A stretch of DNA of 64,000 bases, from positions 3,038,001 through 3,102,000 of the forward strand of contig NZ_CP062165.1 in assembly GCF_014844075.1 (NCBI RefSeq). The letters are read 5' to 3'. This DNA comes from Paenibacillus sp. JNUCC-31. Its GTDB lineage: Bacteria > Bacillota > Bacilli > Paenibacillales > Paenibacillaceae. Below are positions 2,918 to 50,505 of the stretch, piece after piece. Position 1 is the stretch's first letter. Each line of letters opens with the position of its first letter. The notes beneath the pieces were generated by a model. It did not search any database and was not told the origin of the DNA. It saw only the letters and a program-made list of their open reading frames with translations. A program made the position numbers and the translations under genes.

Positions 2918-3544
2918 TTAATCTTCGTGGTCAAAGTCCTGATCAAACGACAGCACTTTACCCGTGTTGGCATCGACGTCAACATCGGCTTCGCCGCCTG
3001 CTGTTCTCAGTTCCACTTCATAAACATAGCGGCCGTTATCATGATCCAGTTCGATTTTGGTTACTTTTCCACCTGTCACCTGTTTCAGGGCAATGTTCGA
3101 AGCTTGGGTCTCTGTCAGTTTAACTTGTTTGGAAGCGGCTTGATTGGAAGAAGCGCCTGCCACAGTGCCATTATAATCATCGTCGTCATCATAATCTTCA
3201 TCATCGACTATTGCGAGGATTTTACCTGTATAGGCTTCCAAACGAACGACAACGTCGTTGCTTCCTTTTTTGTCGATTTCAACTTCATAGAACGTTTGTC
3301 CGTTTCTGCGCTCCAGATCCACATCATCCACTTTACCATCCGTTGCTTTCAGGGCTGCTTCCTTGGCCTGTGCGACCGTCAGCAATTTACCTGTGTTCTG
3401 GGTCTGTGTTACTGACTGTGTAGTGGACGTTTGCGCAGGCTGTACCGATTGTCCGTTCACACTCCCACTAGCCAGAGCGGCTGATCCTCCGAGCAATACC
3501 GCTGCCGACAAGCTGCCAATCCATAGTTTATGTTTGTTCATCAT
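2918..3544 (-). CDS. Secreted or membrane-tethered PepSY domain protein
   Basis: This is a roughly 208-residue exported protein with a signal sequence (MNKHKLWIGSLSAAVLLGG...ALASG) and two PepSY repeats (about residues 50-115 and 140-205). They are separated by an Asp-rich stretch (DDEDYDDDDDYN), and the C-terminus is acidic. PepSY domains are known as small extracytoplasmic folds, often linked to peptidase inhibition or cell-envelope sensing. Of several Met codons at the start, the one at 3544 is best spaced (9 nt) from GAGGAG. The gene lies downstream of a two-component system and another PepSY gene, like ykoGHI in Bacillus subtilis. It has its own promoter with phased repeats. Confidence 0.85.
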   Translation of the reverse strand: MMNKHKLWIGSLSAAVLLGGSAALASGSVNGQSVQPAQTSTTQSVTQTQNTGKLLTVAQAKEAALKATDGKVDDVDLERRNGQTFYEVEIDKKGSNDVVVRLEAYTGKILAIVDDEDYDDDDDYNGTVAGASSNQAASKQVKLTETQASNIALKQVTGGKVTKIELDHDNGRYVYEVELRTAGGEADVDVDANTGKVLSFDQDFDHED

Positions 3545-3584
3545 TATCATCATCTCCTCGTTGTTGTTCTCGTTCTCGTCTACA

Positions 3585-3644
3585 GTTATAGATTAACCTG
3601 GACGAATGAGAGTTCAGCGAGAGCCAGATTAGAATTTGATGAGA
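3585..3644 (-). promoter_or_regulatory. Promoter with four 11-bp-phased TCTnAT-like repeats (PepSY gene 2)
   Basis: On the plus strand the hexamers ATGAGA, GCGAGA, ATTAGA and ATGAGA start at 3606, 3617, 3628 and 3639, exactly 11 bp apart. Read on the minus strand they are TCTCAT-type direct repeats, one helical turn each. A TATAAC -10 lies at 3585-3590, so the nearest repeat overlaps the -35 position. This is the usual arrangement for activation by an OmpR/PhoB-type regulator such as the one at 5975-6724. Confidence 0.65.
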
Positions 3645-3725
3645 AAACGAGGAGAACACTCACATTATTCCTTGAATAGCAATGTGCATGGTTTCATGCA
3701 GGGCTTTTGAACCTACTCGGAGTCC

Positions 3726-4526
3726 TTAATCTTCGGCCTCATCCCAGGTCACGGACCGAATCGCCCCCGAAATGGCATTCACCTGCACGATGGCTTCCCG
3801 ACCATCCTCCAGGTCGATTTCCACCAGATAGTACGGATTGCCGCTATTTGTTCCACGAAGCTCGATATCATCCACTTCCCCGGGAACCTTAGCCAGTGCC
3901 TTCCGCTCTGCTTCTTTCTCGCTCAGAAATGGCGTCTTGGTGCCTTCCCCTGTCGTCTCATCGGATGAAGATGCTTCCAGTGTCTTTGAAGACTGTTTCT
4001 CTCCGGTATACGGATCAATGGTCCATTGCTCCCGGCCTTTGTCCTTCATCTTTAATACCGCCACATAAACCGGGCTTCCCTGCTGCTCGACGAGCTCAAG
4101 CGATACCAGCTCGGCATCCGTTTGTTTCAGCAATTCCGTCTTGATCTGTTCCCGGCTCCATAACGTCTTCTCCTCGGCTTGCGGATTGGACTCCAGCCGT
4201 TTAATGGAATTCACGGTCGCCGTAACCGCATCAATTTGTACGTCATACAGTCCGGTTTCTGAGCGGAGCTGCATGATATAGGTCCCATCCTTCAATGTGG
4301 AATTCACGATTTCTCCCGGATATTGATCCAAAACCGATCGGGCCGCTGCATCTGCTGTTAACATCACGCGATCTGATTGCCACGGCTTCCACCACATGAC
4401 TGCTATAACGACAAGGAACGCCAGGAGCCCCGCAACCCACCAAAATGAACGTCTCGGATTTGCCCATCCTTTGCGTCGCTGTTCTTCCCGTTTCATTTCT
4501 GGACGCCCCTCATGCTCCTCCATCAT
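3726..4526 (-). CDS. Membrane-anchored PepSY domain protein
   Basis: This 266-residue protein has a basic cytoplasmic N-terminus, one membrane segment (FWWVAGLLAFLVVIAVMWW, about residues 28-46) and three or so PepSY-like units outside the membrane. The last is the clearest (KAEAERKALAKVPGEV-like start, ending AISGAIRSVTWDEAED). The AAGGGGGG ribosome site is 3-6 nt before two tandem ATGs. It follows the histidine kinase by 75 bp and has its own phased-repeat promoter, suggesting that it is a target of, or ligand sensor for, that system. No enzymatic motif is visible. Confidence 0.85.
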   Translation of the reverse strand: MMEEHEGRPEMKREEQRRKGWANPRRSFWWVAGLLAFLVVIAVMWWKPWQSDRVMLTADAAARSVLDQYPGEIVNSTLKDGTYIMQLRSETGLYDVQIDAVTATVNSIKRLESNPQAEEKTLWSREQIKTELLKQTDAELVSLELVEQQGSPVYVAVLKMKDKGREQWTIDPYTGEKQSSKTLEASSSDETTGEGTKTPFLSEKEAERKALAKVPGEVDDIELRGTNSGNPYYLVEIDLEDGREAIVQVNAISGAIRSVTWDEAED

Positions 4527-4559
4527 GGTCCCCCCTTATGCACTCTCTTATGATCCGAA

Positions 4560-4609
4560 ATTGTACCGTGTTCACCAGTATATAAGAGAAGAATGAGATT
4601 TTCATGAGA
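4560..4609 (-). promoter_or_regulatory. Promoter with three 11-bp-phased TCTnAT repeats (PepSY gene 1)
   Basis: On the plus strand ATAAGA, ATGAGA and ATGAGA begin at 4582, 4593 and 4604 with exact 11-bp spacing. A minus-strand TACAAT -10 lies at 4560-4565, and the closest repeat covers the -35 position 17 bp away. The array straddles the kinase stop codon. Geometry and hexamers match the array at 3606-3644. Confidence 0.65.
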
Positions 4610-5978
4610 GTGGCCCGTTCTGTACGGATGTGGGCAAAATAATCGAAGCTTCGGTTCCCCTGCCCTCGGTGCTGTTCAGTTCAATACGCGCGCCCACGGC
4701 TTCTGCGATATCTTTGGCCAGGGAAAGTCCCAAGCCCGAACCGCTTGCTCCGCCGCTGCGTGTTCTGGCCTGATCTACGCGATAGAAACGGTCAAACACC
4801 TTGGACAATTCCCCTTCACACATGCCGATTCCCTTATCCACAATACGTATCCGACATTCCTGCCCCTTTGCTTCCAGCCGGACTTCAATGGCATCCTCAC
4901 TATACTTGCGAGCATTGTCCAGCAAAATAAAAAGCATCTGCTTCAGCTTGCTCACATCGCTAACCGCCCATATACTACCCGGATCATCGCAGTGGACTTC
5001 CCGATGATAGGCTTCGCGAAACGCACGGGTGGAATCCAGCGCAAGCCGGGTAATATCCACCCGCTCCAGCTGCACATTCCACTGCTCTGGCTGCTTTGCC
5101 AGCAATAACAGCTGCTCGGTCATCTCCCGCATGCGCACGGATTCGGACAGAATGGCCTCCACCGCTTCGTCGAATACCTCGGGTCGATCCTTGCCGCGTC
5201 GTTGCAGCAGACTGGCATAGCTCTCAATAATGGTGAGTGGTGTTTTCAGTTCATGTGAAGCATCAGAAACAAAGCGCTCCTGCCGCTCGAAGTTGGATTC
5301 GAGCAGGTCCATCATGCGGTTGAACGTCTGTCCCATTGTTTTCAGCTCATCTTTCGATCTTTCATCCAGCGAAAGTCGCTTGAACTGACCACTGGACTGG
5401 ATATCGCTCATTGTGCGAGTCATCTGCTGAATCGGCCGTGTCATCCGGTTCGCCAGAATACGGCTGGAGATGATGGCCGGAATCAGCGCAATGATGGTCA
5501 CGGCAACAAGAACTGTACGGAGCACAGACAGGCTATTCTCGGTATCTTCAATGCTCTCGGTGACTTGTACATTCACCACTTCACCGTCCGGCCAGATGAC
5601 GGGCACAGAAACCCAGACATATCCGATTTGTCCAACCTGGATATATTCGGATTTCTTTTCGCTTTCGTACTTGAAAGACAGCTTGCTCAGCTGCTCCTCT
5701 GCGGAGGTTGTCACCGGCGGGGAGCTGGTGCCGTCTTCGTTGACGATCCGCAGCATGCCGTCCAGCGGCGCGTAGGCTCGTAACAAGTCATCCGGCGGAA
5801 TGGAGCCGGCAGACTGCCGCACTCCTTTTACAATAGACTCGGCCTCGGCTTCGACCCGCTTGATCTCATTATCGATCGACATTCGTTCAAATACGATGTA
5901 TACCGACAGGTTCACGGCAATCAATAGCACGGCGAACAATACGGACGAGTATCCGTAAATTTTGCTGCGCAGACTCAT
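4602..5978 (-). CDS. Two-component sensor histidine kinase (YkoH-like)
   Basis: This is a 458-residue membrane kinase. It has an N-terminal membrane helix (residues about 10-30), an extracytoplasmic loop to about 160, a second helix near 165-185 and a HAMP domain. HisKA contains the phospho-accepting SDASHELKTPLT box, and the ATPase domain has N (LDNARKY), G1 (VDKGIGMCEGE) and G2 (GLGLSLAKDI) boxes. The start overlaps the regulator stop by 4 bp (ATGA), with AAGGAG five bases before it. The adjacent PepSY genes suggest envelope or metal stress sensing; the actual signal is unknown. Confidence 0.92.
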   Translation of the reverse strand: MSLRSKIYGYSSVLFAVLLIAVNLSVYIVFERMSIDNEIKRVEAEAESIVKGVRQSAGSIPPDDLLRAYAPLDGMLRIVNEDGTSSPPVTTSAEEQLSKLSFKYESEKKSEYIQVGQIGYVWVSVPVIWPDGEVVNVQVTESIEDTENSLSVLRTVLVAVTIIALIPAIISSRILANRMTRPIQQMTRTMSDIQSSGQFKRLSLDERSKDELKTMGQTFNRMMDLLESNFERQERFVSDASHELKTPLTIIESYASLLQRRGKDRPEVFDEAVEAILSESVRMREMTEQLLLLAKQPEQWNVQLERVDITRLALDSTRAFREAYHREVHCDDPGSIWAVSDVSKLKQMLFILLDNARKYSEDAIEVRLEAKGQECRIRIVDKGIGMCEGELSKVFDRFYRVDQARTRSGGASGSGLGLSLAKDIAEAVGARIELNSTEGRGTEASIILPTSVQNGPLS

Positions 5979-6724
5979 ACTTGCTCCTTCAGGACGTAAC
6001 CAACGCCCCGAACGGTATGTATTAAGGGTGGTGTGAATCCGCTATCCACTTTTTTGCGCACATAACGGATATACACATCCACCACATTCGTATCTCCATA
6101 ATAATCGTATCCCCAGACGGCCTGAACAATCTGGTCCCGGCTGAGCACCTGGCGCTGATTTTGCATCAGATATACCAACAGATCGAACTCACGCGGGGTA
6201 AGCTCAATTGGTTGACCATCCCTAGATACCTCACGGGTTCCTTCATTCAGCTTCAAGTCACCTGCGGTAAGCCAACCTGTCTCGTTTTCCGCCGTGTGCT
6301 CCATAGATTGCGCCGTATCCCGTGTGACCGAAGAGGCAGAATGGGCAGCAGCCGAGGCTGCACTCAGACGCAGTGCAGCCCGTACTCTCGCGAGCAGCTC
6401 CTCAATCCGGAACGGCTTGGTGATGTAATCGTTGGCCCCGAGATCAAGTCCCGATACTTTGTCTTCCACAGAGTCTTTGGCTGTAAGCATCAGAATGGGC
6501 ACCGTGGCATCCTTGACTCGAATCCGCCGTAATACCTCAATTCCACTCAGACCCGGCAGCATGATATCCAGCAGAATCAGATCCCATTGACCATCGATAT
6601 ACATCTCCAGCCCTTCCGTTCCGCTGCCTGCCTTGCCTACCTGATATCCTTCGTATTGTAATTCCAGTTCAAGCAGGCGTGCAATTTTGGGCTCATCCTC
6701 GATCACCAGTACGGCTTCATTCAT
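5975..6724 (-). CDS. OmpR-family response regulator (YkoG-like)
   Basis: The protein has 249 residues. The receiver domain spans about 1-120, with acidic pocket ED near residue 10, phospho-acceptor Asp in LILLDIMLPG and Lys in ITKPF. A long Ser/Thr/Ala-rich linker (about 125-150) leads to a C-terminal winged helix (ELTPREFDLLVYL, DTNVVDVYIRYVRKK). GGGGGAG is placed correctly before the ATG. It is translationally coupled to the kinase. The TCTnAT arrays before both PepSY genes are its most likely binding sites (inference). Confidence 0.93.
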   Translation of the reverse strand: MNEAVLVIEDEPKIARLLELELQYEGYQVGKAGSGTEGLEMYIDGQWDLILLDIMLPGLSGIEVLRRIRVKDATVPILMLTAKDSVEDKVSGLDLGANDYITKPFRIEELLARVRAALRLSAASAAAHSASSVTRDTAQSMEHTAENETGWLTAGDLKLNEGTREVSRDGQPIELTPREFDLLVYLMQNQRQVLSRDQIVQAVWGYDYYGDTNVVDVYIRYVRKKVDSGFTPPLIHTVRGVGYVLKEQV

Positions 6725-6778
6725 GCAGAGCTCCCCCTCATCCCGTCATTCCATTCTCCCGTTATATTACAATACGAA

Positions 6779-7423
6779 TTACAATTTACCTAAGGCATCC
6801 TCTACCAAGTCATCCCCTGCGATCAGATCAAAAGCCATTCGATACGTCTTCTCCTCCTGGAGGGAAGCAGCGATTACACGAGCGACATCTTCACGCGGGA
6901 TACTTCCCGGTTTCAGGTCTGTTCCTACGGAAATCTTGCCGGTGCCCGGCTCATTTTTCAAACCACCAGGACGGATAATGGTGTAATTCAGTTCACTTGC
7001 GAACAACGCCCGATCCGCATAATGCTTCGCCACATAATACGGCTTGATGGCATCCGACCATTTCTCCCGCTGATCTGCCCCAAACGCACTGACCAGAATA
7101 TATCTGGTAATCCCCTGCTGCTGCGCTGCCTCCATCGTTTTCACCGCACCATCCAGATCAATGAGCAATGTTTTGTCTGCACCCGTAGATCCACCGGAAC
7201 CCGCTGTAAAGACAATGGCATTATGATCCTTCATTGCCTCGGCCAGATCATCCACACTGCCTTCCAAATCGCCAATTACGACATTGGCTCCCAGCTCTTT
7301 TAGTGCGTCTGCCTGTTCCGGTTTGCGAATCATTGCGGTGACCTGATGTTTCCCTTCCTGCGCCAGCTGCTGCACCAGAAATTTGCCAATTTGTCCGTTC
7401 GCTCCAATGACTAATACGTTCAT
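6779..7423 (-). CDS. Atypical SDR / NAD(P)-binding protein (YhfK-like)
   Basis: This 214-residue Rossmann protein opens with the dinucleotide-binding motif GANGQIG (residues 7-13). It resembles the NmrA/YhfK group of atypical short-chain dehydrogenases: RPGG after strand 6, and a YxxxK-like YYVAKHYAD. Members bind NAD(P) and may act as reductases or redox sensors. The substrate is unknown. A GAGAGGAG ribosome site precedes the ATG. It is downstream of ndh but separated by a strong terminator, so it is probably transcribed separately. Confidence 0.85.
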   Translation of the reverse strand: MNVLVIGANGQIGKFLVQQLAQEGKHQVTAMIRKPEQADALKELGANVVIGDLEGSVDDLAEAMKDHNAIVFTAGSGGSTGADKTLLIDLDGAVKTMEAAQQQGITRYILVSAFGADQREKWSDAIKPYYVAKHYADRALFASELNYTIIRPGGLKNEPGTGKISVGTDLKPGSIPREDVARVIAASLQEEKTYRMAFDLIAGDDLVEDALGKL

Positions 7424-7497
7424 ATGTCGTTCTCCTCTCGGTTTGCCTTTTATAAAACCAGCTTTTTATAAAACAGACTTGTCTTTAATTTAAACGA

Positions 7498-7522
7498 AAG
7501 CCGACGCTTCTAAGCGCCGGCT
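7498..7522. other. Hairpin in the leader region of the YhfK-like gene
   Basis: AGCCGACGCTT and AAGCGCCGGCT pair with one A-C mismatch and a 3-nt loop, about 75 bp upstream of the ATG at 7423. It may be a second weak terminator behind ndh or an attenuator. Nothing else is recognised in 7424-7704. Confidence 0.45.
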
Positions 7523-7704
7523 GCTATGTATTACTACTGTTCAGCGCATCTGGTGTGATGCAGATAACACGTCTTTCCTTTAATATACCATACGCCCCAT
7601 ATGCTTTATACCGAGCGCCTTTGACCCACAATATACGATAACAACATGGGATACACCTAAGTCAGGAAATGCATAATATGCCCCTGGGCTAATCATGGTT
7701 ACAA

Positions 7705-34982: not shown

Positions 34983-35210
34983 TAATATTCAACTTATATT
35001 GGGATATATCTAAAGTTGGAACGGGTCTTCACACCAGGATACGCAACCAAGTATGATAAGAGTGTACATGTAGAGAGGCAAGATTAGATTCATAGAGGTA
35101 ACGAACGGAATATGAAGGCACGATCACACAAATTGATTCTGAGGCGGTACAGACCGTTTCTTCACCATACATTGATTAATCGCATCATTTGCGGAGAAAG
35201 GAGTTACGAC

Positions 35211-36140
35211 ATGCGTTATTTTATCGTGGATGATGATCCAGGGGTTCGTTCCATGTTGATGGATATGATAGAGGATGAAGGGCTGGGTGACATTGCTGGG
35301 GAAGCGGAGGACGGAGCACATATCCACGCCGAATTGCTGGAGTTGCACAAGGTCGATGTCCTGCTGATTGATCTGCTCATGCCACAGCGGGACGGTATTG
35401 AAACGGTACGCGCGCTTGAGGGAAGGTTCGAAGGCAAGATCGTAATGATTTCCCAGATTGAATCGAAAAATATGATTGGCGAAGCCTATTCGCTAGGCAT
35501 CGAATATTACATTACGAAGCCGGTTAATCGGCTGGAGATCCTGTCTGTTCTGCGTCTGGTGGAAGAACGCCTTCGCATGCAGCAATCCATTGCAGATATT
35601 CAGCGGACGCTGCAGGGGTTGGCCAGGCTGCAATCTCCCGAACGCGCTGCGTCACAAGCTCCAGACAAAACGATTACCACAGCAGGGCATTTCCTGCTGT
35701 CCGAGATGGGCATGATCGGAGAAGCAGGCAGCAGGGATCTGCTGGACATGCTGGAATATCTGGAGCAAGTCGAGACGGAGGACCATAAGCTGTCTCCTTA
35801 CATGTTCCCTTCACTGAAGGATATTTTCCAAAATGTAGCGATACGCAAACTGGGCAGAGATGCTTCCCCGGCAGAAGTGACCAAGGAGATTAAGGCATCG
35901 GAACAGCGTGTCCGGAGAGCCATTTTCCAGACCCTAAGCCATGTTGTGTCTCTGGGACTGACGGATTATACACATCCGAAGTTCGAAAATTATGCGTCAA
36001 AGTTCTTTGATTTTACCGAGATTCGCAAAAAGATGCTGGAATTGCAAAACAATGTGGAACCTTCCCTGTCCCAGACACGGATTAACACGAAAAAGTTCGT
36101 TCAGGTCTTATATCTGGAGGCCAAACGGTTGCTGCATTAG
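35211..36140 (+). CDS. GlnL/YcbB-type response regulator
   Basis: A 309-residue regulator. The receiver domain (1-120) has DDDPG near residue 7, phospho-Asp in VLLIDLLMPQRDG and Lys in YYITKPVNR. The C-terminal YcbB-type DNA-binding domain (about 165-305) includes LSPYMFPSLKDIFQNVAIRK and SLGLTDYTHPKFENYA. GlnL of B. subtilis, with kinase GlnK, activates the glutaminase-glutamine transporter genes. Here no GlnK-like kinase is adjacent. ATG 35211 follows AAAGGAG by 7 nt; the upstream ATG at 35112 adds 33 basic residues and is rejected. Confidence 0.88.
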   Translation: MRYFIVDDDPGVRSMLMDMIEDEGLGDIAGEAEDGAHIHAELLELHKVDVLLIDLLMPQRDGIETVRALEGRFEGKIVMISQIESKNMIGEAYSLGIEYYITKPVNRLEILSVLRLVEERLRMQQSIADIQRTLQGLARLQSPERAASQAPDKTITTAGHFLLSEMGMIGEAGSRDLLDMLEYLEQVETEDHKLSPYMFPSLKDIFQNVAIRKLGRDASPAEVTKEIKASEQRVRRAIFQTLSHVVSLGLTDYTHPKFENYASKFFDFTEIRKKMLELQNNVEPSLSQTRINTKKFVQVLYLEAKRLLH

Positions 36141-43900: not shown

Positions 43901-44977
43901 TTATCTGGACGATGCCGGAAATGTGGATATTGCTCTGCTATCCGGCAGTTCGCCACCCATGGCGACACACCACTGTTGATAGATGCGATAGGCAGCGCCA
44001 CTCTCCAGCAAACCCTGGCATGTATAGATACCTTCTTCTATTGAATTGACACGCCCCGTCGCATATAGACGGAACCCGCCATTCAACAGAACCTGGTTCA
44101 CAAAGGCGATATGCCCATTCCCTCTTAACACGGCTTCACCTACTTCAAGCTGTTTGGCTGCCGTCCACACCAGCTCCGGTGCAGGAATATCCAGGTCATA
44201 GGCAGCCGGGTCTACCAATTCAAGCCTCATTTCGCCCTGTTCCACGGCATAGACCCGAGTCGGCCGATCGATATACAGGTCTTCCGAACCCTCCATCCCC
44301 TGTACAACATAAGCACGACGATACTGGAAACGGGTGAGCAGCTTGGCAATCCGATCCAGAAACGTATTATGAAATACACCAAAAACCAAATATGGCGATT
44401 GGTTAAAATTAATCAGTTTCTCCGCCGTGTTCAGAACTGTACGAAATCCAAGCTCTTCCCGCAAAGGACGAAGTTGCCGGAGAGGGGCGCACCACTCCTC
44501 GGATGAAACATACATCACTCCTGTACGCAGGGCAGCACTTCTGGCATCTTCACGATCCATCTCCCATGTATTAATCCCCGCTTTTCTTAACAAAACCGAT
44601 AACGTAACTCCCCACTTCGGTGGCAGAGGTTCACTTCCATGCAATGTCACCGGAAGGCCTGCAGCAGCGAGCACAAACGCAGTCGGAAATGTGGCCATAA
44701 AGGACTTGGTGCGTCCATCATACGGTCCAGCACAATCCAGTCCTTCCCGAAATATGGATAGACGCTCCGCATGGTTCTGACAAGCATGAACAAACGCTTC
44801 AAGCTCTTCGACATTTTCCATCTTCATTCGCTCAGCCATAAGAAAGGCAGCCGTCTGGGCAGGCGATACCTCCTGTCTGAGGATTTTTTCTGCTACAGCC
44901 AGTGCCTCCGCATAATGCAGATCACGCGAGCCTCGTTTCCCTCGCCCGACTTCCCTGAGTATTTCGGACATATCCAC
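43901..44977 (-). CDS. TrpD2-like protein (anthranilate phosphoribosyltransferase fold)
   Basis: A 358-residue protein with the nucleoside-phosphorylase-like fold of TrpD2/YbiB. The N-terminal helical domain contains DLHYAEALAVAEKILRQEVSPAQTAAFLMAERMK. The core has VTLHGSEPLPPKWGVTLSVLL and LGFRTVLNTAEKLINF; the first glycine loop of true TrpD (GTGGD) is replaced. It is therefore probably not a tryptophan enzyme. E. coli YbiB (TrpD2) binds nucleic acid without phosphoribosyltransferase activity. The GTG start has GGAGG 7 nt upstream. It follows the ANTAR gene by 18 bp, so the two form an operon divergent from nasDE. Confidence 0.75.
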   Translation of the reverse strand: MDMSEILREVGRGKRGSRDLHYAEALAVAEKILRQEVSPAQTAAFLMAERMKMENVEELEAFVHACQNHAERLSIFREGLDCAGPYDGRTKSFMATFPTAFVLAAAGLPVTLHGSEPLPPKWGVTLSVLLRKAGINTWEMDREDARSAALRTGVMYVSSEEWCAPLRQLRPLREELGFRTVLNTAEKLINFNQSPYLVFGVFHNTFLDRIAKLLTRFQYRRAYVVQGMEGSEDLYIDRPTRVYAVEQGEMRLELVDPAAYDLDIPAPELVWTAAKQLEVGEAVLRGNGHIAFVNQVLLNGGFRLYATGRVNSIEEGIYTCQGLLESGAAYRIYQQWCVAMGGELPDSRAISTFPASSR

Positions 44978-44995: not shown

Positions 44996-45589
44996 TTAAG
45001 ACTGGAGCAGTTGATGCGCCTTTACAATGGCTGTTGCCACATCCACCATCCGTTTACGTTCATCCATCGCTTTCTTGCGCAGCAAGTCATAGGCCTCCGA
45101 TTCGGAAATCTGCTTCAGATCACACAGGATTGCTTTGGCCATGTCAATCCATTTCCGGTCCTCCAGCCTGGATTGCAGCTGCTTGCGCTCCTGCTCCCAC
45201 TGCTTGCGTTCCATATAACGCTTGGCTGCAAAATGAAGGGTCCAGTGAATCTCCGGCCCGCTCATGGAGGGGGTGAGTATTCCGTCAAAGGACGTCTCCA
45301 CCTCGCAAGATTCTGCCGAAGAAGAGGCCGTATCCGGGGCACACCACCAGAGCAGTGGTGTGTCCGACTTCCCCTTTCCCAGAGATTGCACCCAATACTC
45401 CATGTCTGCCAGAGACAAATGAAGGATGGATGCGTCAGCTCCGCCAGCCAACTTCAGCGCCTCCGTCTCACTGTCTGTCACCTGCACATGATACCCATTC
45501 GCTCCCAGTAGTTTCTCCGGTGTCAGAGGGATTGCATCAATCGAGGCAGATAGTGTTGGCTGAACACGGATGACCAATAAAGATCGCAT
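44996..45589 (-). CDS. ANTAR-domain antiterminator (NasT/AmiR-like)
   Basis: A 197-residue protein. The N-terminal part (to about 115) is a pseudo-receiver; the phospho-acceptor site reads ILHLSLAD with no Asp in the usual place. A coiled coil (MERKQWEQERKQLQSRLEDRK) leads to a C-terminal ANTAR RNA-binding domain (IDMAKAILCDLKQISESEAYDLLRKKAMDERKRM). ANTAR proteins bind twin hexaloop hairpins in leaders and prevent termination. The divergent nasD leader has a matching hairpin and terminator. GGAGG precedes the ATG by 12 nt. No NasS-like sensor is adjacent. Confidence 0.88.
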   Translation of the reverse strand: MRSLLVIRVQPTLSASIDAIPLTPEKLLGANGYHVQVTDSETEALKLAGGADASILHLSLADMEYWVQSLGKGKSDTPLLWWCAPDTASSSAESCEVETSFDGILTPSMSGPEIHWTLHFAAKRYMERKQWEQERKQLQSRLEDRKWIDMAKAILCDLKQISESEAYDLLRKKAMDERKRMVDVATAIVKAHQLLQS

Positions 45590-45667: not shown

Positions 45668-45684
45668 TGTCATATTACCTTACA
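45668..45684. promoter_or_regulatory. Candidate GlnR/TnrA box 1
   Basis: TGTCATATTACCTTACA matches TGTNA-N7-TNACA exactly and the longer TnrA consensus at all but one defined position. It lies 80 bp upstream of the ANTAR gene. Confidence 0.6.
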
Positions 45685-45801: not shown

Positions 45802-45818
45802 TGTTAACTATATTGACA
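45802..45818. promoter_or_regulatory. Candidate GlnR/TnrA box 2, overlapping the nasD -35
   Basis: TGTTAACTATATTGACA matches TGTNA-N7-TNACA. Its right end is the -35 hexamer of the nasD promoter, so binding could repress, or activate by contact. Confidence 0.6.
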
Positions 45819-45841
45819 TGAAGAGATGGATCTTTTATAGT
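45813..45841 (+). promoter_or_regulatory. SigA promoter of the nitrite operon
   Basis: TTGACA (45813-45818), 17 bp, TATAGT (45836-45841). A transcript from about 45848 would have a leader of about 195 nt before nasD. Confidence 0.85.
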
Positions 45842-45874: not shown

Positions 45875-45907
45875 CAGCTACAACGGCGTAGCTGGTTGAA
45901 ACGGCAA
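45875..45907 (+). promoter_or_regulatory. ANTAR-type antiterminator RNA hairpin(s) in the nasD leader
   Basis: P1: CAGCTAC and GTAGCTG pair (7 bp) around the hexaloop AACGGC, which has the A1 and G4 required for ANTAR recognition. A possible P2 follows at 45896-45907 (TTG-AAACGG-CAA); it is only 3 bp long and lacks G4, so it is doubtful. P1 ends 16 bp before the terminator. Confidence 0.75.
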
Positions 45908-45909
45908 TG

Positions 45910-45987
45910 AAGCCTGTTTTGCAATCTCGGAGCAAGGGATGCGTATGTGTATGCGCAATCCTCCGAGGCATAACAGGCTTTTTCTAT
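45910..45987 (+). terminator. Leader terminator upstream of nasD
   Basis: AAGCCTGTT (45910-45918) and AACAGGCTT (45972-45980) enclose a CTCGGAG/CTCCGAG stem and a third inner stem, followed by TTTCTATTTT. It lies between the promoter and nasD, so it must be bypassed for expression. Confidence 0.9.
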
Positions 45988-46041: not shown

Positions 46042-48486
46042 ATGAGTACAACGAAAAAATTGGTACTGGTCGGCAATGGCATGGCAGGAATCCGAACCAT
46101 TGAACATATTCTCAAGCTCGCACCACACGCTTATGAAATCACCGTCTTCGGCGCTGAGCCGCATCCCAACTACAATCGCATTATGCTCTCCTCTGTCCTC
46201 GCAGGTGGCACGAGCATTGAAGATATTGTGATCAATGATTGGAGCTGGTACGAAGACAATGGCATTCAGGTATACCCGGGTGACCCTGTCATCCAGATTG
46301 ATGCCAATCGCAAGGAGGTTGTATCCCGGAATGGTGTACGCGCAACCTACGATGAGCTGATTATGGCGACAGGCTCTCAAGCCTTCATGCTGCCACTCCC
46401 GGGAGCGGACAAAGAAGGCGTGATCGGTTTCCGGGACATCAAGGACTGCGAGACGATGATGGCCGCATCGCAAACGTATCGCAAAGCCGCCGTCATTGGA
46501 GGTGGCCTGCTTGGACTGGAAGCTGCGCGGGGCCTGCTCAATCTGGGCATGGACGTGACGGTCATCCACATTAACGGGCATCTGATGGACCGGAATCTGG
46601 ATTTGCCAGCAGGTCTAATGCTCCAGCGGGAGCTTGAGGAGCAGGGTATGAAGTTCCTTTTGAACAAACATACCGAAGAAATCACAGGCAAACATCGGGT
46701 CAAAGCCATTCGGTTCACAGACCAAACGGTGCTTGAAGCCGATCTGGTCGTCATGGCCGTCGGAATAAGGCCCCAGGTTGAACTGGCCCGTCAGGCGGGC
46801 TTGGACGTGAGCCGAGGTGTCATCGTGGATGATTATATGAACACCAGCATACCTGGCATCTCGGCTGTGGGCGAATGCGCAGAGCACCGCGGGATTGCAT
46901 ATGGACTGGTGGCTCCATTATATGAGCAAGGCATGGTACTGGCGAAGCGTCTTGCGGGTGCGGCAACGGAAGGTTATGAAGGATCTGTGACTTCGACGAA
47001 GCTCAAAGTATCCGGTGTAGACGTCTTCTCCGCAGGGCAGTTCAAGGATTCAGCGGGCACCCGCAGCATTCGCATACAGGACGACGTGGATGGTGTCTAC
47101 AAAAAGATGGTCCTGAAAGACGGAGAGCTGATTGGAGCTGTATTGTTTGGTGATACAACAGATGGTGCATCCCTTTTCTCCCTCATTAAAAGTGGGGAGA
47201 ACATTAGTGGACGCGAAAAAGAAATATTGCTCGGCGTACCCTCAGGTTCCGGTTCAGGCTCTGGTCCATCCATTGCTGAACGCATGGCAAGTATGCCAGT
47301 TGACGAGATCGTCTGTGGATGTAATGGTGTTACCAAAGCTGCCATCGGTGATGCTGTGCTGAACAAAGGATGCAACACACTGGGTGCCATTAAGTCCTGT
47401 ACCAAAGCCTCAGCTTCCTGCGGTGGATGCAAACCGATTGTGGAATCATTGCTTGTCCATTATGCAGGCGATGCTGTGGGTGAACAGGTGAAAGAAGGCA
47501 TCTGTGGCTGTACTTCCTATGACCGTGATGAGATTGTTTCCCAGATCAAGGAGATGGGACTGAAAACCGTGAAGGAAGTTATGAATGTACTCGGTTGGAA
47601 TGAGCCTGAAGGCTGCTCCAAATGCCGTCCATCCCTCAACTATTATCTCGGCATGATCTGGCCGACCGAATATGAGGATGAGCGGGTATCCAAATTCACA
47701 AATGAGAGGTATCACGCCAACATCCAGAAAGACGGCACGTATTCCGTTATTCCACGGATTTATGGCGGTGTCACTTCCCCGGCAGAGTTGATGAAGATTG
47801 CCGCAGTTGCGGAGAAATACGACGTACCCATGGTGAAGTTCACGGGTGGGCAACGGCTCGATCTGCTCGGTGTACAGAAGGAAAATCTGCCGAAGATTTG
47901 GGAAGAGCTTGATATGCCTTCCGGCTTCGGTTATGGCAAGGCATTGCGAACCGTCAAGACATGTGTGGGCAACACGTTCTGCCGATTCGGAACACAGGAC
48001 TCCATTGAGATGGGCATTCGTCTGGAGAAAAAACTCGACAAGATGGTCGCTCCTGCCAAAGTGAAACTCGCTGTCTCAGGTTGTCCACGGAACTGTGCAG
48101 AGGCCACAATTAAGGATCTGGGTGTTGTTGCAATTGACGGAGCATGGGAACTGCATGTCGGTGGCAACGGTGGAGTTAAGGTCCGTGCAGCCGAGCTGTT
48201 ATGTACGGTGAAGACTGACGCTGAAGTGGAAGAGTGGACTTACGCCTACCTTCAATACTATAGAGAGAATGCACGATGGAATGAGAGAACAGCGGCTTGG
48301 ATTGAACGGGTCGGTCTGGATCATGTAAAAAAAGCACTGGAAGACCGCGACGTACGTCTCGCACTGGTAGAAAGACTTGAATTAACCCTGGGGCGTACCG
48401 TCGATCCATGGAAAGAAATCATTGATAACGAAAAATTGCGTAAAAACTTCACCCCCTTGGCTGATGCACAGCCCACAGCCCACTAG
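46042..48486 (+). CDS. nasD: Assimilatory nitrite reductase, large subunit
   Basis: An 814-residue cytoplasmic enzyme reducing nitrite to ammonium with NAD(P)H. Domains in order: FAD/NAD-binding (LVGNGMAGIRTIEHI; second Rossmann VIGGGLLGLEAARGLL), a BFD-type [2Fe-2S] region (CGCNGVTK, SCGGCKP), then sulfite/nitrite reductase half-domains. CVGNTFCRFG and SGCPRNCAEATIKDLG supply the [4Fe-4S]-siroheme cysteines. ATG 46042 follows AAGGGGG by 9 nt. An in-frame ATG at 45907 lies inside the leader terminator and is rejected. It is the first gene of nasD-nasE-FNT-SUMT. No nitrate reductase is in the window. Confidence 0.94.
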   Translation: MSTTKKLVLVGNGMAGIRTIEHILKLAPHAYEITVFGAEPHPNYNRIMLSSVLAGGTSIEDIVINDWSWYEDNGIQVYPGDPVIQIDANRKEVVSRNGVRATYDELIMATGSQAFMLPLPGADKEGVIGFRDIKDCETMMAASQTYRKAAVIGGGLLGLEAARGLLNLGMDVTVIHINGHLMDRNLDLPAGLMLQRELEEQGMKFLLNKHTEEITGKHRVKAIRFTDQTVLEADLVVMAVGIRPQVELARQAGLDVSRGVIVDDYMNTSIPGISAVGECAEHRGIAYGLVAPLYEQGMVLAKRLAGAATEGYEGSVTSTKLKVSGVDVFSAGQFKDSAGTRSIRIQDDVDGVYKKMVLKDGELIGAVLFGDTTDGASLFSLIKSGENISGREKEILLGVPSGSGSGSGPSIAERMASMPVDEIVCGCNGVTKAAIGDAVLNKGCNTLGAIKSCTKASASCGGCKPIVESLLVHYAGDAVGEQVKEGICGCTSYDRDEIVSQIKEMGLKTVKEVMNVLGWNEPEGCSKCRPSLNYYLGMIWPTEYEDERVSKFTNERYHANIQKDGTYSVIPRIYGGVTSPAELMKIAAVAEKYDVPMVKFTGGQRLDLLGVQKENLPKIWEELDMPSGFGYGKALRTVKTCVGNTFCRFGTQDSIEMGIRLEKKLDKMVAPAKVKLAVSGCPRNCAEATIKDLGVVAIDGAWELHVGGNGGVKVRAAELLCTVKTDAEVEEWTYAYLQYYRENARWNERTAAWIERVGLDHVKKALEDRDVRLALVERLELTLGRTVDPWKEIIDNEKLRKNFTPLADAQPTAH

Positions 48487-48502
48487 AAGAGGAGGATCAG
48501 CC

Positions 48503-48820
48503 ATGAATAAATTACGAATTGGACACCTTACGGATATTGATGAGAAAGGATCACGAACATTTAAGGTACTGGATACTGAAATAGCTGTCTTCAAATTAAG
48601 TGACGGAAGTCTGCACGCTGTAGAGAATCGCTGCCCTCACAAGGGCGGCAGACTGTCAGAAGGCATGGTATGCGGGACGGCAGTCCATTGCCCTCTGCAT
48701 GATTGGAAGATTGATCTTCGCAGTGGCAAGGTACACGAACCGGATGAAGGTTGTCTGAACACATACCCGACAGAAGTGGATGGAAACAGCGGGGAAATCT
48801 ACATCACCATTGCAGGTTAA
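48503..48820 (+). CDS. nasE: Nitrite reductase small subunit (Rieske)
   Basis: A 105-residue Rieske-type [2Fe-2S] protein, the partner of NasD. The ligand boxes CPHKGG and CPLHDWKID are clear. The start ATG at 48503 has GAGGAGGATCAGCC directly before it, 16 bp after the nasD stop. A longer frame from 48422 overlaps nasD and is rejected. Confidence 0.94.
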   Translation: MNKLRIGHLTDIDEKGSRTFKVLDTEIAVFKLSDGSLHAVENRCPHKGGRLSEGMVCGTAVHCPLHDWKIDLRSGKVHEPDEGCLNTYPTEVDGNSGEIYITIAG

Positions 48821-48856: not shown

Positions 48857-49738
48857 ATGGATTTTGTTAAACCGGCAGAAGTATTGCAATCAATGGTCGA
48901 GGCAGGAGAAAGCAAAGCCAGAATGAACCGGGTACAGCTGCTGATCCGAGGTTTTTTGGCGGGAGCTATCCTTGCTTTTGCAACAACCCTGGCGTATACC
49001 GCTGTATCTCAAACTTCCATTGGTTTGGCAGGTGCATTGATTTTCCCAGCGGGGTTCGTCATTATCATTCTGCTGGGGCTTGAACTCGTAACCGGGAGCT
49101 TTGCCCTGATCCCGCTCGCGGTGATGAAGCGCAAAGTCAGTGTGATGGATATGCTGAGCAATTACTTCTGGGTCATTGCAGGCCATGTGATCGGATGTTT
49201 ATTCTATGCTCTATTATATGGGCTGACTCTTACCAAAATGGGGACGGACATGAGCAACCCGCTCATCCAAACGCTAGTCCAGACCAGTGAAGCCAAAACA
49301 TTGGGGTATCAACACCTGGGCGGAGCAGGTATCGTTCTTGTGGTCATCAAAGCGATTCTATGTAACTGGATGGTCACTCTCGGAGTGGTCATGGCGATGA
49401 CCTCCACTTCCACGCTCGGTAAAATTGCAGCGATGTGGTTGCCCATTACTATCTTTTTCGCACAAGGTTTCGAACACGCTGTAGTGAATATGTTTGTCAT
49501 TCCGGCAGGCATGATGCTGGGCGCCGATGTCAGTATCGCAGACTGGTGGCTGTGGAATCAGATTCCCGTGCTGGTGGGCAACTTCATTGGCGGTGCCATA
49601 TTCACAGGATTTGGCCTTTATGCAGCTCATAGATGGGGAAGTCCTGTCAAGCTTTCATCCACGCTGGCAACCATTCCGGGTGGCCGTTCAGGACTAGCCA
49701 GTCCTGATACTGCATCCAAGCTGGGGACACCATCATGA
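48857..49738 (+). CDS. Formate/nitrite transporter (NirC-like)
   Basis: A 293-residue FNT-family pentameric channel with six membrane helices. FNT signatures include LGLELVTGSFALIPLAVM and the second half FAQGFEHAVVNMFVIPAGMMLGA. In this operon the cargo is almost certainly nitrite. AAGGAGG precedes the ATG. Its end overlaps the SUMT gene by 4 bp, indicating translational coupling. Confidence 0.92.
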   Translation: MDFVKPAEVLQSMVEAGESKARMNRVQLLIRGFLAGAILAFATTLAYTAVSQTSIGLAGALIFPAGFVIIILLGLELVTGSFALIPLAVMKRKVSVMDMLSNYFWVIAGHVIGCLFYALLYGLTLTKMGTDMSNPLIQTLVQTSEAKTLGYQHLGGAGIVLVVIKAILCNWMVTLGVVMAMTSTSTLGKIAAMWLPITIFFAQGFEHAVVNMFVIPAGMMLGADVSIADWWLWNQIPVLVGNFIGGAIFTGFGLYAAHRWGSPVKLSSTLATIPGGRSGLASPDTASKLGTPS

Positions 49739-50505
49739 GCCGGGGCCTGGTAAGTATCGTTGGTGCAGGTCCTGGAGATCCTGAGCTGATTACGGTAAAA
49801 GCCCTGAAACGCATCCAGTCCGCAGATGTCATCCTGTATGATCGACTTGTTAATGAGCAGTTGCTTGCCGAAGCCCGTGAAGGCGCGCTCCGAATTTACT
49901 GCGGCAAAGCCCCAGGCCTGCATTCAATGACTCAGGAAATGATCGGACGTATATTGGCCGCGCATGCTGCAGAAGGCAAACAGGTGGTTCGACTCAAGGG
50001 CGGCGATCCATTCATCTTTGGGCGCGGAGGTGAGGAAGCCATTGTACTTGCACAAGCCGGAATTCAATTCGAAGTTATTCCGGGTATCACTTCAGCTGTG
50101 GGGACATCCGCTTCATCTCTTATACCGTTAACACATCGCGGAGTGGCTTCATCCTTCGCATGTGTAACCGGAACCGGGAGTGACGGAAACGTATCCTCTG
50201 TCCGCTGGGACCTGCTCGCCCATAGTGTAGACACCCTGGTGATCTACATGGGCATCAGTCAATTGCCCCAGATTCAGCACGAATTGCTTCACCATGGCAA
50301 AAGCGGCTGCACACCAGCGGCGCTGATAGAACGAGGTACCACCTCGCAGGAGCGAATTATTACAGGTACACTTGCCGAACTTCATTCACTCGCCCTGTCG
50401 CAAAACGTAAGTAATCCGGCGCTAATTATGATTGGAGAGGCCGTCCGTGTACGCGAACAGGTGCTTCAACTGCAGCAGGCGGCTAATACCTCGATGACAG
50501 GGTAA
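49735..50505 (+). CDS. Uroporphyrinogen-III C-methyltransferase
   Basis: A 256-residue SAM-dependent methyltransferase making precorrin-2, the first committed step to siroheme. GAGPGDPELITVKALKRI lies at the start, then VVRLKGGDPFIFGRGGEEA, GITSAVGTSASSLIPLTHRG and a final IIGEAV-like (LIMIGEAVRVRE) segment, all typical of SUMT. It supplies siroheme to NasD; the oxidase/chelatase is not in the window. It overlaps the FNT gene by 4 bp and is the last gene of the operon. Confidence 0.93.
   Translation: MSRGLVSIVGAGPGDPELITVKALKRIQSADVILYDRLVNEQLLAEAREGALRIYCGKAPGLHSMTQEMIGRILAAHAAEGKQVVRLKGGDPFIFGRGGEEAIVLAQAGIQFEVIPGITSAVGTSASSLIPLTHRGVASSFACVTGTGSDGNVSSVRWDLLAHSVDTLVIYMGISQLPQIQHELLHHGKSGCTPAALIERGTTSQERIITGTLAELHSLALSQNVSNPALIMIGEAVRVREQVLQLQQAANTSMTG

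Follow-up and report, generated by a model that had tools for sequence, protein, structure and literature searches.

The locus raises two questions: whether RNA polymerase that has left the promoter of a nitrite reductase operon can be halted or let through before the first gene, nasD, and which protein might sense the signal that decides between the two. It lies within a stretch of 64,000 nucleotides from Paenibacillus sp. JNUCC-31 (contig NZ_CP062165.1, positions 3,038,001 to 3,102,000 of the forward strand), the whole of which is called the window here and supplies all positions for which no other locus is named. The operon is read from the plus strand and is divergent from a pair of genes on the minus strand.

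43901..44977, minus strand: gene for a TrpD2-like protein (P0002), with a TrpD fold without GTGGD, 18 nt downstream of the ANTAR gene
44996..45589, minus strand: gene for an ANTAR protein with a pseudo-receiver (P0001; PF03861, 66.2 bits, cut-off 27.3)
46042..48486, plus strand: nasD, large subunit of a NirB-type nitrite reductase (TIGR02374, 1030 bits, cut-off 578)
48422..48820, plus strand: nasE/nirD, small subunit of nitrite reductase (TIGR02378, 85.8 bits, cut-off 74.65), whose true start is probably further inside this listed frame
48857..49738, plus strand: formate/nitrite transporter (PF01226)
49735..50505, plus strand: uroporphyrinogen-III C-methyltransferase, for siroheme (TIGR01469, 298.8 bits, cut-off 185)

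The region in front of nasD contains the following elements.

45668..45684, no strand assigned: second exact GlnR/TnrA-type box, in the intergenic region on the side of the ANTAR gene
45802..45818, plus strand: GlnR/TnrA-type box TGTTAACTATATTGACA, an exact match to TGTNAN7TNACA that overlaps the -35 hexamer
45813..45841, plus strand: sigma-A type promoter of the nasD operon, TTGACA-N17-TATAGT, with 11 of 12 consensus positions
45875..45894, plus strand: P1 hairpin CAGCTAC-AACGGC-GTAGCTG, 7 bp, with A1 and G4 in the loop
45895..45902, plus strand: P1-P2 linker of 8 nt
45903..45914, plus strand: P2 hairpin GGC-AATGAA-GCC, 3 bp, the second ANTAR hexaloop, again with A1 and G4
45909..45983, plus strand: intrinsic terminator hairpin with its T run (45979-45983)

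The ANTAR target described in the accessible part of PMC3369931 comprises two hairpins, each with a stem of 3 bp or more and a loop that carries A1 and G4; the linker between P1 and P2 is 5-12 nt in the eut genes, and in the best candidates P2 overlaps the terminator. The nasD leader fits every item of this description, and the 5' arm of its terminator takes in the 3' arm of P2 (GCC, 45912-45914). Both structures that the original prediction had placed here, a 7-bp stem carrying the hexaloop AACGGC and a large intrinsic terminator ahead of nasD, were found. Its view of the second hairpin as weak has to be corrected, P2 being canonical, with a stem of the published minimum length and with its pairs intact in all 50 of the sequences aligned below.

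The segment 45860-45995 folds 4.6 sd better than its dinucleotide shuffles, none of 200 of which equalled it. In the minimum-energy fold the 5' arm of P2 is unpaired because the terminator wins, and the form GGC-AANGNN-GCC was recognised by comparing relatives. The terminator is not listed by a simple scan with a loop limit of 8, and a promoter scan found 2 sites here against a mean of 2.1 in shuffles. Neither the window nor the nasA-nasBC stretch described below (L263) contains a match to an Rfam family at or above its gathering score; the weak matches to the leader, a SAM/SAH riboswitch among them, all fell below their gathering scores (best E 0.95) and were rejected. An ATG in the P2 loop (45907) opens a stop-free frame of 859 aa into nasD, which is probably due to chance, since the open frames of nasD vary in length among relatives.

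For the comparison, 132 nasD leaders were collected, from the window, from 53 genus loci and from 78 of 80 named loci, with overlap of species between these sources. The named loci are the best 80 of 298 relatives from a scan of genome_contigs with the TrpD2-like alignment and are all Paenibacillaceae by title; no nasD leader came from two of them (L180 and L183). Repeats among the 132 leave 79 distinct cores. Dual hairpins with A1/G4 hexaloops are present in 131 of the 132 leaders, as against 15 of 1320 dinucleotide shuffles and 3 of 132 reverse strands, the sole exception (L172) having kept P2 with a degraded P1. In all 131 motif-bearing leaders the P1 loop reads AANGNN and P2 reads GGC-AANGNN-GCC, and the linker is 6-10 nt long in 130 and 3 nt in one. 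As A1 and G4 were required by the search, the invariance of the loops is partly built in; the weight rests on the low rate in the controls and the constant position of the dual hairpin, not on loop invariance alone.

Fifty of the distinct cores were aligned, and 98.4% of the cells at paired positions are paired, compared with at most 44% when the arms are slid as a control. In P1, 5 of the 7 pairs have changed on both sides. This number of pairs is not above that of shuffles, 171 of 500 of which reach it, and the fraction of paired cells and the covariation score are above them, with none of 500 reaching either. The closing AC/GU pairs of P1 and the A1, A2 and G4 of its loop are the same in all 50, so that the loop and stem are conserved in relatives, which the original prediction had named as a point on which it could fail. 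Covariation of both hairpins, one of its proposed checks, was borne out for P1 and is silent for P2, whose three pairs are intact and unvarying in 50/50 and which gives no signal because it never varies. The sequence of P2 must serve both the P2 hairpin and the terminator; strict pairing of P2 with the terminator is seen in 121 of the 131 leaders, the window included, and fails in 10. A covariance model built from the nasD leaders has matches in 101 of 198 genomes of the order at E ≤0.05.

The source genome (G000, 7.55 Mb) carries two more dual-hairpin leaders, one per strand, back to back in the interval that separates nasA from nasBC.

L263:1673-2905, minus strand: nasA of the source genome
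L263, about 3331-7687, plus strand: nasB-nasC of the source genome

NasC of this genome scores 1113.6 bits against NF047855 (cut-off 1100), and the nasA transporter scores 285.8 bits against the nitrate/nitrite MFS model TIGR00886, below its cut-off of 311.7. Transporters in relatives were named via this homologue, which is 78% identical to that of L241 and 62% identical to that of L251. When the whole source genome was searched with the nasD leader model, the nasD site scored 68 bits and the next best, an unrelated site, 17.8; the nasA site (14.9 bits) stands among unrelated sites of similar score and the nasB site is unlisted. Among seven weaker sites (L204-L210), the strict motif is present only at that of nasA. 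In a 90 kb search the nasB site ranks second (17.4 bits, E 0.014) and the nasA site third (14.9 bits, E 0.066). The view that the system has a single target, which the one strong site had suggested, was dropped when the second sites of relatives proved to precede NasB-like and transporter genes: of 20 model sites read in 20 stretches from the order, 6 lie before a NasB-like gene, 9 before a transporter and 3 before nasD, and the other 2 (L249, L250) have another or an unclear downstream gene.

Across the source genome and its relatives, 48 of 50 usable regions upstream of nasA or nasB contain an ANTAR-type element. These derive from 65 regions, 59 of them with an element, after removal of ten nasB-labelled matches with an element that are nasD itself, four nasB-labelled matches without one that are nasD copies at 40-43% (L248, L256, L257, L259; in L256 and L257 nasD follows nasA), and the nasA row of L252, a misplaced slice. 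The two misses (L073 and L074) are near the ends of their loci, and the same species carry the element in L162 and L240. One of the 48, at nasA of L257, is doubtful with its 17-nt linker, and several loci represent one species twice, so that the 48 comprise 38 distinct sequences. An alignment of 33 of these has two-sided changes at 4 of 6 P1 pairs and 97.6% of cells paired. The P2 arm is paired within the terminator in 39 of the 48 elements; strict pairing fails in the other 9, which include the nasB leader of the source genome, where just two of the three P2 bases are within the terminator stem. As a negative control, a strict motif search found no ANTAR element at the paralogous nirB of the source genome (L264), which encodes a NirB-type reductase 57% identical to nasD (L264:3924-6353; C1:1218435-1220807). 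The frame after this gene has weak similarity to the formate/nitrite transporter of the window.

The reading that we favour, with a probability of roughly 85%, is that the nasD leader constitutes a canonical ANTAR antitermination switch, of which three were found in the genome, and that these would together serve a nitrate regulon. With the ANTAR protein inactive, the nascent leader would fold into the terminator and transcription would end before nasD. The active protein is predicted to hold both hexaloops, which would leave the 3' arm of P2 unavailable to the terminator and allow RNA polymerase to continue through nasD and nasE to the transporter and siroheme genes. It is expected to act on the nasA and nasBC leaders too, so that the regulon would extend over nitrate uptake, nitrate reduction and nitrite reduction. 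RNA binding, antitermination and a nitrate or nitrite signal are what we infer. The ANTAR-type antitermination originally proposed in front of nasD is supported by the sequence; a gate on the nitrite operon is too narrow a description, since with the two further leaders the system looks like a nitrate regulon and not just a nitrite-operon gate.

A further level of control may precede the leader. The pattern TGTNAN7TNACA, which we take to be the GlnR/TnrA consensus, has four exact matches in the whole window. A box of this type lies upstream of P1 in 108 of the 131 nasD leaders, in front of all three leaders of the source genome and at 43 of the 48 nasA/nasB elements, as opposed to 25 of 1600 similarly long random stretches; the promoter pattern TTGACW-N16-18-TANNNT is present in 115 of the 131. 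The box at each of the three promoters would be a first gate that reports the general nitrogen state, the direction of the control by GlnR/TnrA being inferred. On this reading the nitrate regulon is doubly gated, by the nitrogen state at the promoter and by ANTAR antitermination in the leader. A protein with receiver and YcbB domains, presumably GlnL-like and possibly related to nitrogen, is encoded 10 kb from the nas locus (35112-36140, plus strand). The parts of two reports that were accessible describe an association of GlnR with nasDEF in Paenibacillus sp. JDR-2 (PMC3412718) and nas genes that are up under nitrogen-fixing conditions in Paenibacillus sp. WLY78 (PMC4774088).

The divergent gene encodes what had been predicted, an ANTAR protein with a pseudo-receiver. 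In a Pfam scan at E 0.001 the ANTAR domain is the one match of P0001, with no NIT domain, and P0001 is in turn the only ANTAR match in the source genome at that threshold. Its structural model (mean pLDDT 86.2, pTM 0.70) has a receiver-like fold in the N-terminal part, and the top six Foldseek matches in the PDB are Rv1626, EutV (one with RNA) and AmiR, with TM-scores of 0.43-0.61; the AmiR chains of the AmiC-AmiR complex (1qo0) rank fourth and fifth (E 9.1e-7 and 1.7e-6). The RNA contacts of EutV, as named in the accessible part of PMC8934654, were placed by way of an EutV alignment with a shift of 2 between the numbers of the paper and those of the chain. Nine of the 11 are identical in all 39 aligned sequences, P0001 included (R145, K146, K152, E163, Y167, R171, M175, R178 and R180); the place of K147 is taken by M in 36, L in 2 and K in 1, and that of N173 by N in 33 and D in 6, with D in P0001. 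Receiver positions 57 and 106 were chosen from the predicted strands. At the phospho-acceptor position 57 there is H in 22 sequences, D in 7 and another residue in 10, and position 106 holds T or S in 34 of 39 and K in none. With its phosphorylation residues not conserved, the receiver is unlikely to be activated by a kinase. Control of P0001 by a partner or a ligand seems likelier, by analogy with AmiR, whose receiver is not known to be used for phosphorylation.

A candidate partner is P0002. Its gene adjoins the ANTAR gene in 80/80 of the named loci (the best 80 of 298 relatives), among which that of Paenibacillus pabuli is closest (96% identical over the TrpD2-like protein). In place of GTGGD the protein has A-x-PYDGR, the letters of which are invariant in 19/19 sequences. 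It reaches 149 bits against the TrpD enzyme model (cut-off 199) and 101 bits against that of YbiB (TrpD2; cut-off 185), and its best NCBIfam model is PRK07394 with 167 bits (cut-off 287). As it falls below the YbiB cut-off, and likewise below those of PRK07394 and PRK09071, it is called TrpD2-like only. The name anthranilate phosphoribosyltransferase, which this family bears in those sources that name it, is probably wrong, the motif having gone. Another TrpD-like gene of the source genome (C1:673787-674755) has GTGGS, and viral_contigs, when scanned with the TrpD2-like alignment, yielded no relatives.

Relatives of this kind occur in other phyla. TrpD relatives without GTGGD, labelled as glycosyl transferase family proteins, were seen inside nas clusters of Catenovulum, Ponticoccus and Sulfitobacter (L114, L115, L280), and those of Catenovulum and Ponticoccus belong to PRK09071 (384 and 340 bits, cut-off 257). 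On other proteobacterial plasmids a longer related gene is found by siderophore uptake genes. The idea that such genes mark nas clusters universally is limited by the Acinetobacter, Cereibacter, Pararhizobium, Pannonibacter, Azospirillum and Agrobacterium plasmid records viewed, where the 5-7 kb around the related gene contain no nas genes. The cyanobacterial CnaT we take to be TrpD-like and a member of PRK07394. According to the accessible part of PMC9430850, which cites Frias 2003, CnaT is a positive regulatory element for expression of the nirA operon in Nostoc PCC 7120. Literature joining cnaT with anthranilate phosphoribosyltransferase was searched for and none was found, and the relation of P0002 to CnaT is a lead.

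What, then, senses the signal? The most likely sensor is the TrpD2-like partner, which may hold the non-phosphorylatable pseudo-receiver much as in AmiC-AmiR and NasS-NasT, a step to which we give about an even chance. Adjacency of the two genes (80/80 of the best 80 of 298 relatives, and 7 of 9 further loci) speaks against the pseudo-receiver sensing the signal itself, as a one-component regulator whose TrpD2-like neighbour has another job. That alternative is somewhat unlikely; it draws on the loss of the partner in 4 of the 54 genus genomes that keep the ANTAR gene and the leader (gene missing in 3, a remnant in 1), which counts against the partner as sensor, and on C83, C95, H119 and the letters of P-x-x-W-W-C, invariant in 39/39 aligned Paenibacillaceae sequences. 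Of 9 further loci, 7 of which represent other families of the order, 8 retain C83, 6 retain C95 and 1 retains H119. These residues are not kept throughout and hence form no universal cofactor site, and the notion of a cysteine-pair sensor is weakened.

It is also conceivable, if unlikely, that nitrate or nitrite reductase needs the TrpD2-like protein as an enzyme or helper, the linkage being metabolic with no role in signalling. Its relatives are found directly behind nitrate reductase in the nas clusters of Catenovulum, Ponticoccus and Sulfitobacter, and its loss goes with lack of NasC (3/6 vs 1/48, p 0.003 with kinship ignored), two of the three NasC-lacking losers (G068 and G069) looking like close sisters. 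However, three further genomes without NasC (G021, G046, G047) retain the gene, the GTGGD motif of TrpD is gone, related genes elsewhere adjoin siderophore uptake genes, and in the window the gene itself lies co-directionally 18 nt behind the regulator, which it also follows, outside the enzyme operon, in relatives having both. A true NasS-NasT arrangement, with a nitrate-binding NasS-like protein encoded elsewhere, is quite improbable. NasT likewise joins a receiver-like domain to ANTAR (PMC3795266, in the part accessible), yet in the NasS-NasT systems covered by the accessible literature nasT and nasS occur together, and none of the 18 window ORFs scanned with Pfam (about 35.1-58.9 kb) is NasS-like, in keeping with the absence of a neighbouring NasS noted originally. 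It is scarcely credible that hairpins and terminator are a constitutive attenuator or a leftover that involves no protein. A strong terminator would by itself lower nasD expression, but the invariant closing pairs and A1, A2 and G4 of P1 (A1 and G4 being required by the search), the recurrence of the motif at three operons of one genome and the fact that 54 of the 55 genus genomes having this nasD class also encode the ANTAR protein argue against it.

If the TrpD2-like partner is the sensor, it would offer a biochemical handle on catalysis-dead TrpD relatives, perhaps including CnaT. A bolder proposal, which we regard as doubtful, is that TrpD-fold proteins that have lost catalysis form a general signalling module of nitrate assimilation across phyla. 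In the Paenibacillales they would gate an RNA-binding ANTAR antiterminator, in cyanobacteria CnaT would be needed for expression of the nir operon, and in some proteobacteria they lie within nas clusters. Should this be true, the Paenibacillus pair would show a direct target, an RNA-binding protein.

The device as such is of a known kind, and what is new is the partner and the layout. ANTAR control of nitrate genes is already known from Klebsiella and from bacteria with NasS-NasT. As with NasS-NasT of Paracoccus denitrificans and others, a receiver-like domain is joined to ANTAR, with a nas leader RNA and nitrate/nitrite genes (PMC3795266, accessible part); unlike that system, there is no NasS in the scanned window ORFs, the neighbour is TrpD2-like and there are three separate leaders. 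NasR, which acts at nasF of Klebsiella oxytoca, shares the leader hairpins and terminator before nitrate genes and the ANTAR output (accessible parts of PMC3369931 and PMC7496416), whereas P0001 lacks its NIT domain. EutV-EutW of Enterococcus faecalis has the dual hexaloop RNA and the RNA-contact residues (PMC8934654, accessible part) but serves another pathway, and P0001 has no conserved phospho-acceptor aspartate (D in 7/39 at position 57). AmiC-AmiR of Pseudomonas aeruginosa shares the receiver fold with ANTAR, as in the structural match 1qo0; here, in contrast, the neighbour has a TrpD fold, there is no partner of the AmiC type and the target is nitrate assimilation. With TrpD2 (E. coli YbiB), PRK07394 and PRK09071, P0002 shares a TrpD fold that has lost GTGGD, while falling below each model's cut-off. 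Literature searches on ANTAR/NasT, Paenibacillus and nitrate or nasD antitermination gave no title on this system; the supplementary tables of PMC3369931 may list such sites.

Many members of this Gram-positive order appear to place their nitrate genes under ANTAR control, behind a GlnR/TnrA-type gate. Relatives of P0001 occur in 54 of 75 genus genomes and, with distant ones included, in 134 of 198 genomes of the order (E 0.001). Within the genus, the ANTAR protein and this nasD class are found together in 54 genomes, nasD alone in 1 and neither in 20; for NasC, the corresponding figures are 48 with both, 6 with ANTAR only, 2 with NasC only and 19 with neither, all of these counts ignoring kinship. 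Two natural losses are useful for tests. In G086 a deletion takes out the ANTAR gene and extends into nasD on one side and the TrpD2-like gene on the other. G085 has neither a match to the ANTAR protein in a protein search nor such a nasD class, yet it has nasA and nasB elements, and it counts against the simple story unless the loss is recent. In a locus from another family of the order (L259), nasD and a distant ANTAR gene are divergently oriented. This ANTAR gene lacks a TrpD2-like neighbour, and a strict leader element was not found at this nasD, which counts against the favoured reading; the ANTAR match there (G030, contig 10) lies within an open frame of 1112 codons, either a fusion or merely a long frame. 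In six genus genomes (L085-L090) there is also a second and distant ANTAR protein, with 30-32% identity (L085, about 4783-5334, of a 183 aa class), whose gene adjoins agmatinase-like and ABC-transporter-like genes, named by eye, in the two loci viewed.
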